Assembly: GCF_039645565.1 (NCBI RefSeq)
Contig: NZ_CP147914.1
Coordinates: 1,361,573-1,425,572, forward strand
DNA: 64,000 bases
Direction of reading: 5' to 3'
From: Sulfurimonas sp. HSL1-2
GTDB lineage: Bacteria; Campylobacterota; Campylobacteria; Campylobacterales; Sulfurimonadaceae
Positions 20,422-23,196 of the stretch are shown piece after piece; within the stretch, counting starts at the first letter, position 1, and each line of letters begins with the position of its first letter. A model generated the notes under the pieces. That model worked only from the letters and a program-made list of their open reading frames with translations. It ran no database searches and was not told the origin of the DNA. The position numbers were made by a program, and so were the translations under genes.

Positions 20422-20427
20422 TATAAT
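20422..20427 (+). promoter_or_regulatory. -10 box for the Cys-rich gene and metE
   Basis: TATAAT just after the TehB-like stop codon and 31 nt before the TTG start of the Cys-rich gene. No separate promoter is obvious in the 57 nt before metE, so the two may share this one. Confidence 0.5.
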
Positions 20428-20457
20428 GCGGCAACATTTTTGGAAGAGGAGAGGTTT

Positions 20458-20787
20458 TTGAGAGCACCCAGAGGTTTCGGCAAGCGCTACTTTACCCTCG
20501 CTTCCATCCAGGCGCACAGCGTCGCGCCCGCGCAGAACGCCCTGCGCGACTGCCTTGAAACCTATGCAACCGCCCTGCAGCGTGACCGCGAAAGCGACGA
20601 GGACCCGCCGGAAGAGCCCCTCGAAGCCCTCGCTTGCTTCGCCAACGACAAACCCTGCCACTGCGACTGTTACTTTAGACGCCGAACCTTCCTGACCCTG
20701 CGCGCGTGCCGCAAAAAATCCGCCTGTAACTGCAACTGCCGATTCTACAGCTTCCGACGCACCGGGGTACACCCGCCGCACCTCTGA
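20458..20787 (+). CDS. Cysteine-rich small protein upstream of metE
   Basis: Unrecognised 109-residue protein. The second half has two similar Cys clusters, PCHCDCYF and ACNCNCRFYSF, plus further Cys, giving nine cysteines in all. The first half is helical and acidic in the middle (RESDEDPPEEP). The TTG at 20458 is chosen because GAGGAG stands 6 nt upstream; an in-frame TTG at 20440 is possible. The cluster pattern suggests metal binding (Zn or Cu) or a redox-sensitive role. It lies 57 nt before metE, a zinc enzyme, so a link to zinc or methionine supply is conceivable but unproven. Confidence 0.6.
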   Translation: MRAPRGFGKRYFTLASIQAHSVAPAQNALRDCLETYATALQRDRESDEDPPEEPLEALACFANDKPCHCDCYFRRRTFLTLRACRKKSACNCNCRFYSFRRTGVHPPHL

Positions 20788-20844
20788 TTTTTTTCCAACC
20801 GATCATTCCAACAATCAAAAAGAAAAATATCAAAGGATATACCC

Positions 20845-23196
20845 ATGTCAAAAAACTACGTTATCGGCTACCCGCGCATCGGGGAGAACCGCGAACTGAA
20901 ATTCGCGCTGGAGAACTACTGGAGCGGCAAAAGCGACCTCGCGGCCCTGGAAGCGAGCGCGGCAGAACTGCGCCGCCGCCACTGGAAGGAGCAGCATGAC
21001 GCCGGCATCGCTGTCATCAGCTGCAACGACTTCAGCTACTACGACGCGATGCTCGATACCTGTATCATGCTCGGTGCGGTCCCGGCCCGCTTCCGCAACA
21101 TCAAGGACGAAACGCTCCGCTACTTCACGATGGCCCGCGGCGACAGTCAGCGTACCGCGATGCAGATGACCAAGTGGTTCAATACCAACTACCACTATAT
21201 CGTCCCCGAGTTCGCTGCAGACGACACCTTCGCGCCGAACGCCGCGAAGATCATCTCCGAATACCGTGAAGCAAAGGCCGCGGGGATCGCCCCGAAAATC
21301 AACCTGATCGGCCCCCTCACTTTCCTCTGGCTCGGCAAAAGCGTCGACAGAAACTTTGACCGCCATGCCCATTTCGATGCCGTTGTCGCCTGCTACGAAG
21401 CGGTGCTGACGGCGATCAGTACTCTCGACGAGCAGATTACCGTCCAGATCGACGAGCCGCTCCTGGTAACGGGGCCGGACGTCAAAACCCTGAGCCTGCT
21501 CAAACGCGCCTACGACCGGCTCGGCTCCACCGTCTCACACGTCAAAATCATCGTCGCGACCTACTTCGAACACGCCTGCGAGGCCGTCGAAGTCCTGGCC
21601 CATACGCCGATCAGCGGGATCGCCCTCGACTTCGTCCATGGCCCGCGCAACATGGATGCCCTCGCCACTATCGCCCAAAGCGGAAAAACGCTCATTGCAG
21701 GGGTGATCGACGGGCGGAATGTCTGGCGCAGCGACCTCGATGCCGTCGGCGACAGGCTCGAGACGATCGCGCAGACGGTGCCGAAAGCCCTTATCGTTCC
21801 CGCCACCTCCTGTTCGCTGCTGCACGTCCCCTATTCGCTCGAAGCGGAAACGAAACTCGATGCGGAAATAAAGCAGTGGCTCGCCTTTGCGAAGGAGAAG
21901 CTGGCCGAACTGAACCTCGTCGCCAAACGCTTCGCCGGTGAGGCACTGGACGATGCAGAGCTGAGCCTGATGCAACTCAGCCGGGAAGCGGTCCACACAC
22001 GGCAATGCTCCCCGCGCATCCACGACGCCGCCGTACAGCAGCGCGTTGCATCGCAGACGACGACGGAGCGTGCGCAACCCTATACGGAGCGGATCAAGGC
22101 CCAGCGCGAAGCACTGGCCTACCCCCTGCTGCCGACGACGACCATCGGTTCTTTCCCGCAGACGCCGGAACTGCGTAGCCTTCGCCGCGACTTCAAACGC
22201 GGCGACATCGATGCCCGGACGTACGAAGCGGGCATCAAAGCCTATATCGACGACTGCATCGCCTTTCAGGAGTCGATCGGGCTGGACGTACTCGTGCACG
22301 GCGAACCGGAACGCAACGATATGGTCGAGTATTTCGGCGAACAGCTCGCCGGGTTTGCGTTCAGCGCCAACGGCTGGGTTCAGAGCTACGGCAGCCGCTG
22401 CGTCAAGCCGCCGCTCATCTACGGCGACGTCAGCCGCCCGCTGCCGATGACGGTGGGCTGGACGACCTATGCGCAGAGCAAAACGGCGAAGATCGTCAAG
22501 GGCATGCTCACCGGCCCCGTCACGATCCTCAACTGGTCCTTCGTCCGCGACGACATGTCCCGTGCCGATGTTGCCGCGCAGATCGCCATTGCCATCGGCG
22601 ACGAGGTCGACGACCTCCAGGATTCCGGTATCCGCATCATCCAGGTGGACGAGGCGGCCTTCAAGGAGGGGTACCCGCTGCGCCGCGAGAATATCGCTGC
22701 CTACGAGACGTGGGCCGTCGACGCCTTCCGCCGCAGCGTCGCCTGTGCACGCAGCGAGACGCAGATCCATACGCATATGTGCTACAGCCAGTTCAACGAC
22801 ATCATCCACACCATCGAGGCGATGGACGCGGACGTCATCTCCATCGAGACTGCCCGCAGCGGCAACGCCTTGCTGCGCATCTTCAAGGAGGTCGGCTACA
22901 AGCAGGAGGTCGGGCCAGGCGTCTACGACATCCACTCCCCCCGCATCCCGCCGGTGGCGGAGATGGTCGCGCAGATTCATGCCCTGCTGGAGGTACTGCC
23001 GCAAGAGCAGCTCTGGATCAACCCCGACTGCGGCCTTAAAACCCGAAAATGGGAGGAGGTCAAACCGAGCCTGGCCAACATGGTCGAAGCCGTCGGGGAG
23101 GTCCGCGCCTCATTTGACGCTATAATCGCATCCAAAAAAGGCGATGCAGCATGGACGAACCCCTCGAGATCCTCTACCGCGACGAGTGGCTTGTAG
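20845..23196 (+). CDS. metE: Cobalamin-independent methionine synthase
   Basis: 783-residue MetE, which transfers the methyl group of 5-methyl-tetrahydropteroyltriglutamate to homocysteine in the cytoplasm. Two homologous barrels are present. The C-terminal one has the zinc ligands in IHTHMCYSQFND and NPDCGLKTR, and TIGSFPQTPELR binds homocysteine. It is about 30 residues longer than E. coli MetE, the excess being at the C-terminus, where its end overlaps truC by 46 nt. AAGGA precedes the ATG. Confidence 0.96.
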   Translation: MSKNYVIGYPRIGENRELKFALENYWSGKSDLAALEASAAELRRRHWKEQHDAGIAVISCNDFSYYDAMLDTCIMLGAVPARFRNIKDETLRYFTMARGDSQRTAMQMTKWFNTNYHYIVPEFAADDTFAPNAAKIISEYREAKAAGIAPKINLIGPLTFLWLGKSVDRNFDRHAHFDAVVACYEAVLTAISTLDEQITVQIDEPLLVTGPDVKTLSLLKRAYDRLGSTVSHVKIIVATYFEHACEAVEVLAHTPISGIALDFVHGPRNMDALATIAQSGKTLIAGVIDGRNVWRSDLDAVGDRLETIAQTVPKALIVPATSCSLLHVPYSLEAETKLDAEIKQWLAFAKEKLAELNLVAKRFAGEALDDAELSLMQLSREAVHTRQCSPRIHDAAVQQRVASQTTTERAQPYTERIKAQREALAYPLLPTTTIGSFPQTPELRSLRRDFKRGDIDARTYEAGIKAYIDDCIAFQESIGLDVLVHGEPERNDMVEYFGEQLAGFAFSANGWVQSYGSRCVKPPLIYGDVSRPLPMTVGWTTYAQSKTAKIVKGMLTGPVTILNWSFVRDDMSRADVAAQIAIAIGDEVDDLQDSGIRIIQVDEAAFKEGYPLRRENIAAYETWAVDAFRRSVACARSETQIHTHMCYSQFNDIIHTIEAMDADVISIETARSGNALLRIFKEVGYKQEVGPGVYDIHSPRIPPVAEMVAQIHALLEVLPQEQLWINPDCGLKTRKWEEVKPSLANMVEAVGEVRASFDAIIASKKGDAAWTNPSRSSTATSGL
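23121..23126 (+). promoter_or_regulatory. Internal -10 box within the 3' end of metE
   Basis: TATAAT lies inside the metE coding region, 25 nt before the truC ATG, so truC may have its own promoter in addition to read-through. Confidence 0.4.

Follow-up and report, generated by a model that had tools for sequence, protein, structure and literature searches.

What is encoded by the cysteine-rich reading frame of 109 residues that lies directly 5′ of metE in Sulfurimonas sp. HSL1-2? An earlier note, drawn up from the letters of the window (the whole 64,000-nucleotide stretch of DNA analysed here), had suggested a metallochaperone, a metal buffer or a sensor. Bacterial B12 regulation is known mainly as a riboswitch, and the cobalamin riboswitch (RF00174) controls metE, btuB and cbi genes. 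As judged from sequence comparison, a regulatory or sensor role appears to be the best reading of the frame.

Sequence evidence for a translated leader ORF upstream of metE

The frame occupies positions 20458-20787 of the + strand, starts with TTG and is followed directly by metE. The features of the locus are as follows.

20422..20427, + strand, -10 promoter box TATAAT, 36 nt 5′ of the leader start codon (sequence)
20447..20454, + strand, leader ribosome binding site AGGAGAGG (sequence)
20458..20787, + strand, leader ORF, 109 aa, TTG start (frame conservation, codon freedom, dN/dS)
20467..20520, + strand, N-module motif PRGFGKRYFTLASIQAHS, residues 4-21, co-occurring with MetH and B12 genes
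20605..20610, + strand, first Pro-Pro, residues 50-51 (DEDPP), matching in position the terminal Pro-Pro of short leaders
20656..20670, + strand, first Cys cluster CHCDC, residues 67-71, start of the C-module
20725..20739, + strand, second Cys cluster CNCNC, residues 90-94
20743..20778, + strand, conserved tail FYSFRRTGVHPP, residues 96-107, two codons 5′ of the stop
20832..20837, + strand, metE ribosome binding site AAAGGA (sequence)
20845..23196, + strand, metE, B12-independent methionine synthase (PRK05222, 1071 bits; Pfam Meth_synt_1 and Meth_synt_2)

The position of TATAAT implies a 5′ UTR of approximately 20-25 nt, and AGGAGAGG is a strong ribosome site for the TTG start. The leader stop and the metE ATG are 57 nt apart, and because no promoter-like site was found on the + strand between them, the leader and metE likely share one transcript, as had been surmised before. 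No terminator was found on the + strand right 3′ of the leader. By Pfam and NCBIfam, the upstream neighbour is a TehB-like methyltransferase gene, and metE is followed by a pseudouridine synthase gene. The metE frame (783 aa) overlaps this next gene, whose ATG is at 23151, by 46 nt (23151-23196), and the final ~25 metE residues lie beyond the MetE model.

The nine cysteines of the leader (C32, C60, C67, C69, C71, C84, C90, C92 and C94) include the clusters PCHCDCYF and ACNCNCRFYSF, and the peptide has no internal Met or Trp. The earlier note had called it otherwise unrecognised, and in agreement no relative was found among Pfam, NCBIfam or PDB sequences; viral contigs likewise gave none. AlphaFold returned no confident fold (pLDDT 61, pTM 0.30), with the invariant tail within the low-confidence part. 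Among 84,980 named species genomes scanned, 252 relatives were retrieved; the best 80 of these were titled Sulfurimonas, Sulfurovum, Sulfurospirillum, Arcobacter/Aliarcobacter and similar, apart from a few bins without assignment and a single one labelled Helicobacter pylori. In the family search, 133/151 genomes gave a leader match at E≤0.01, a count that includes short N-terminal matches in other contexts; individual rows of this search, and of the whole-leader (A1), N-module (A4) and metE searches below, were read among the matches listed.

When the codons of 23 relatives, mostly situated directly 5′ of metE, were aligned, invariant residues were seen to be encoded by varied codons with free third positions, and the Arg pair of the tail was encoded by both CGN and AGR. 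The dN/dS was 0.08-0.17 in 9/10 metE-leader pairs, dS being saturated in the tenth (L015/L017), and 0.23 for one pair of copies 5′ of a TonB receptor. Constraint in the own genus was strongest over the first 25 codons (pN/pS 0.05 vs 0.15 elsewhere). These data indicate that the leader ORF is real, translated and selected as a peptide, not as RNA; the nine-cysteine frame first noticed in the window is thus a genuine ORF, and two findings that could have undone it, a lack of conservation in relatives with metE and signs of non-translation, went the other way, since the leader is linked to metE and conserved in such relatives, and dN/dS and codon freedom point to a translated frame.

Conservation was uneven along the peptide. 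The N-terminal motif, C67 and C69 (nearly) and the terminal RR-x-G-x-H-PP were invariant, and of the nine cysteines only C67, C69 and C90 were near-invariant. The two similar Cys clusters described earlier do exist in the window, but the second is not general: the own genus has it, as do some distant lineages, and most relatives have CPYYTTYFAFRRTGVHPP instead. Two CxC pairs are also present in some lineages.

Two modules, each followed by Pro-Pro

The metE leader consists of an N-module (motif consensus KGFGKxYFxLxAIxAxS) and a C-module (CxC...RRTGVHPP). In both, a conserved motif is followed ~39 residues later by Pro-Pro, and the two have no sequence in common. The internal duplication proposed earlier holds only loosely, for the two-module architecture and not for the sequences.

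A -10-like match of at least 5/6 was found in the 60 nt 5′ of the start at 83/92 N-module start sites vs 0.30 of random windows, and an exact TATAAT at 47/92 vs 0.033. Across the 92 sites, the box was commonest 30-37 nt 5′ of the start codon, which implies a leader 5′ UTR of ~20 nt. By these predictions, the translated leader is the first ORF after the promoter box, 5′ of metE, btuB-type or cbi genes; a translated small ORF directly 5′ of the regulated genes is one hallmark of leader (arrest) peptides.

Conserved stall-type residues near the C terminus are another. Pro-Pro was present in 85/85 leaders shorter than 200 aa and lay at most 15 residues from the stop in 79/85, and the leader search pattern contained no Pro-Pro requirement. 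In the short leaders (49-62 aa; 5′ of btuB or cbi genes), which have no Cys cluster, the first Pro-Pro started at residue 44-50 in 24/24 and at residue 49 in 16/24; in one (L313) it was at 44, with a second at 49. Shuffled short leaders contained a Pro-Pro by chance in 16% (mean 0.16 each) vs the 24/24 observed. Many metE leaders had two Pro-Pro pairs, one near residue 50 and one near residue 106. The first CxC and the final Pro-Pro were 34-39 residues apart in 73/74 leaders (median 39), with sequences otherwise differing; the remaining distance of 50 arose from the choice of an extra upstream CxC. Among the leaders listed, the pair and its preceding residue read HPP, SPP, APP or DPP. Receptors with an in-frame N-module often had no Pro-Pro (L092, L096 and the receptor of L095), so it is not universal.

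The spacer between leader and metE was 16-236 nt in 54/56 measured cases, mostly A/T-rich, and the leader overlapped metE in the other 2. Across these 56 cases, neither a terminator in common nor a blocked metE ribosome site was found that would link leader and metE.

The N-module follows B12 use

Relatives occurred in three positions: 5′ of metE (most), of a TonB-dependent receptor and of cbiM-cbiK-cbiL. Of 38 N-module contexts, 33 were at a TonB receptor, 8 of these in frame as the receptor's own N terminus, and 5 at a cbiM operon. This set does not include G381, G363 or the second G371, nor does it cover G407 and G408, which together with G363 make up the N-module genomes lacking MetH. For receptors with a separate leader, TonB-B12 was the best NCBIfam model in 8/8 and in L297, always below the equivalog cut-off, and in L297 btuF- and btuC-type genes follow the receptor; it was not obtained for the two in-frame receptors tested (L090 and L086). 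The cbi genes were identified by model as CbiM, CbiK, CbiL and CbiC in L300, and CobB in L299. One of the 38 contexts (L330, the same as L032) is a second copy in the own genome, at G000:C1:170827-171114, 5′ of a TonB receptor and with metH ~15 kb away. The annotation of this receptor is ambiguous, TonB-siderophore (1e-21) scoring slightly better than TonB-B12 (3e-19).

RF00174 matched 0/296 genomes of the phylum and 8/14 controls, and its covariance model had no match in the window or in 14 loci; Rfam at a loose threshold gave four weak matches, all below the gathering score. With no cobalamin riboswitch detectable in the phylum, metE, btuB and cbi genes must be regulated otherwise.

MetH (PF02965) was detected in 114/298 genomes, the whole-leader profile A1 in 135/298 (106 shared with MetH) and the N-module profile A4, whose source genomes belong to the same sample, in 109/298. 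N-module and MetH occurred together in 106 genomes, N-module only in 3, MetH only in 8 and neither in 181 (p 1e-66), and two of the three N-module-only genomes matched at E ~0.01; by genus, in counts compiled by hand from N-module and MetH rows among the matches listed, the numbers were 32, 2, 3 and 21 (p 1e-10), although the co-occurrence pattern is tied to phylogeny, so that both p-values overstate independence.

A census of 80 metE genomes (40 MetH+ and 40 MetH-), hand-picked among the matches listed of 201, separated the two modules. The N-module profile of the own family was found 5′ of metE in 30/40 MetH+ vs 0/40 MetH- genomes (E<1e-3), with two further MetH+ genomes just past the threshold (E 0.002-0.003), and the C-tail profile in 34/40 vs 11/40. 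By pattern, a leader ended before or within the metE start in 40/40 MetH+ genomes and before metE in 16/40 MetH- genomes, the MetH- figure thus depending on the method (16/40 by pattern, 11/40 by profile). The metE leader had the C-module only in 8/40 MetH+ genomes. The MetH- genomes with a C-module leader belong to genera g20 and g27; among the family labels, f3 is presumably Campylobacteraceae. The B12-binding domain PF02310 was found in 6/6 MetH+ genomes tested vs 0/26 MetH- genomes, 15 of which have a C-module leader, and the C-module was accordingly dropped as a B12 marker. Furthermore, in G338, which has metE and no detected MetH, the C-module was kept and the N-module had decayed and lacked Pro-Pro; in its genus-mate G358, with MetH, the N-module was intact. 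Taken together, MetH co-occurrence, the census, PF02310 and this genus pair indicate that the N-module follows B12 use and the C-module does not require it. Assigning one module to B12 and the other to methionine is a working model and not a clean split, since a CHCNC module also occurs in leaders that precede the TonB receptor in some genomes of the Sulfurimonas type.

CobS (PF02654) was found in 0/32 Campylobacterota genomes and 10/14 controls. Its absence extends to MetH+ genomes, which makes it useless as a marker of B12 use and bears on how Campylobacterota finish or salvage B12.

Alternative readings of the conserved frame

Alternatively, the leader could encode a small protein (chaperone, buffer or repressor) that binds metal or a cofactor, acts in trans and is produced in step with the genes downstream. 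Its Cys/His clusters, the two CxC pairs of some lineages and purifying selection along the whole length, including the middle (pN/pS 0.15), would suit such a protein. Nevertheless, we consider it unlikely: it has no confident fold, most of its cysteines are not conserved, short leaders lack the Cys cluster altogether, Pro-Pro lies beside the stop at a fixed spacing, and in the contexts read the frame is immediately 5′ of a gene or in frame with it. The metallochaperone or metal buffer of the earlier note fares poorly on the same grounds, with no relative found in Pfam, NCBIfam or PDB and with the N-module also 5′ of genes for B12 uptake and synthesis, in short leaders devoid of any such cluster. 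A metallothionein or metallochaperone was rejected on the missing Pfam/NCBIfam match and on C67, C69 and C90 being the only near-invariant cysteines of the nine.

A small exported helper of BtuB, with the N-module as signal peptide, is suggested by those lineages in which the N-module forms the TonB receptor N terminus and has signal-peptide-like hydropathy. The maximum hydropathy, however, was 0.90 for the own leader and 1.33 on average for long leaders vs a mean of 2.18 for 13 in-frame receptors, so that the hydrophobic N-terminal segment of an exported protein is missing from the own leader; an exported partner also makes little sense 5′ of metE, and Pro-Pro stands at the end. We regard this reading as quite improbable. 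The N-module is a signal-peptide-like TonB receptor N terminus in several lineages (in-frame receptors L086, L090, L092, L095 (from 2246), L096, L317-L321 and L327-L329), and the leader N-module and the receptor signal peptide may have a common origin.

A classical attenuator, in which a terminator responds to charged tRNA counted at Cys or Met codons, would account for the Cys-rich composition, and a 20-aa MetL leader precedes metBA in Campylobacter jejuni (the available text of PMC3847290). It is nonetheless very improbable here: the own leader lacks internal Met and Trp, relatives have other residues at the Cys positions, leaders also precede B12 genes, and no + strand terminator was found right after the own leader; it was rejected on the first and last of these points.

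Least probable of all, to the point of being nearly dismissed, is a structured RNA such as an unknown cobalamin riboswitch overlapping the ORF, which would explain a gene set equal to that generally known for cobalamin riboswitches but stands against the lack of an Rfam match, a 5′ UTR of ~20 nt, free third positions and RNAalifold consensus energies of only -0.36 kcal/mol for metE leaders (0/5 pairs covarying) and -1.4 kcal/mol for btuB leaders (one covarying pair). An aptamer-sized conserved RNA fold was not found in the 5′ leader, and RF00174 itself was rejected for want of a covariance-model match and a conserved fold.

A model of ribosome pausing in the B12/methionine regulon

We therefore return to the leader peptide. 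From its sequence and placement, the frame is, on balance, probably a cis-acting leader peptide of a B12/methionine regulon that acts through ribosome pausing, and such a peptide would most likely take the place of the B12 riboswitch. The ribosomal exit tunnel holds ~30-40 residues, which would put each conserved motif at the tunnel end once its Pro-Pro occupies the active centre. In the proposed mechanism, Pro-Pro at the active centre would make the ribosome pause with the conserved motif, ~39 residues back, at the tunnel exit; a cellular signal read there by the motif would set the length of the pause, and pause length would set the amount of downstream gene product via Rho, translational coupling or mRNA stability. 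The N-module would most likely respond to cobalamin status and the C-module to a signal that does not need B12, for which methionine or one-carbon status is the likeliest candidate; in the metE leader the two would be read in series. Several observations speak against this model: in-frame receptors often lack Pro-Pro, L090 and L086 did not give TonB-B12, the own receptor scores slightly better as TonB-siderophore, leader and metE share no common terminator or blocked ribosome site, and some MetH+ genomes have a metE leader with the C-module only.

A more far-reaching version, which we put forward only tentatively, would make the peptide a protein counterpart of the cobalamin riboswitch: the nascent chain would sense cobalamin on the ribosome, directly or via a partner, and control metE, btuB and cbi genes across Campylobacterota, with a B12-independent methionine-type sensor fused to it in the metE leader. 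If true, this would be, to our knowledge, the first case of regulation by a nascent chain linked to a large cofactor, with two separable input modules, and B12 sensing in these bacteria would become a directly testable question. The leaders and RF00174 share the same kind of genes; RF00174 is an RNA aptamer, whereas the element here is a peptide.

Among known systems, the leader would work most like TnaC and SpeFL, if stalling occurs as supposed. According to the available text of PMC8429421, in both systems the nascent peptide and the ribosome together sense a metabolite; both are short ORFs 5′ of the genes that they regulate, a sensor part precedes an effector part in SpeFL, and TnaC has Pro at the stall site. 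The metE leader would resemble them in these features; the present family differs in its B12 and methionine genes, its 50-110 residues, its Pro-Pro and its two modules per peptide. The RAPP-type arrest peptides (ApdA, ApdP and ApcA) and SecM, as described in the parts of PMC12992588 and PMC10987492 available, are small ORFs 5′ of a regulated gene with a C-terminal Pro-Pro-type end near the stop, and this end is what the leaders have in common with them. In contrast, the leaders carry HPP, SPP, APP or DPP, not a C-terminal RAPP, RGPP or RAGP, they are not 5′ of secretion genes, nor do the metE leaders look secretory; the available text of PMC10987492 makes no mention of Campylobacter, metE or cobalamin.

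In Mycobacterium tuberculosis, a translated uORF lies within the leader of the metE B12 riboswitch, where B12 is sensed by the RNA and the uORF has a modulating role (PMC11260477, available text). Both that uORF and the Campylobacterota leader are small ORFs 5′ of metE, but no aptamer was found here. In the same phylum, the LeuL, TrpL and MetL leaders of C. jejuni are described as tRNA-type attenuators of 20-28 aa (PMC3847290 and PMC11955535, available text), and MetL precedes metBA, not metE. In the open-access literature, no paper was found that describes a leader peptide for metE or B12 in Campylobacterota.

Other elements near the leaders

Two further sequence elements were observed. In some genomes (L007 and L008), palindromic repeats of CTTCGCAGGAATGACGG type are present in the intergenic region 3′ of the leader stop. 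Many of the C-module-only frames of MetH- genomes start with a shared (A/V)PC motif 5′ of the Cys cluster (L106, L115-L118, L134 and L137-L142), which is possibly another small conserved element.
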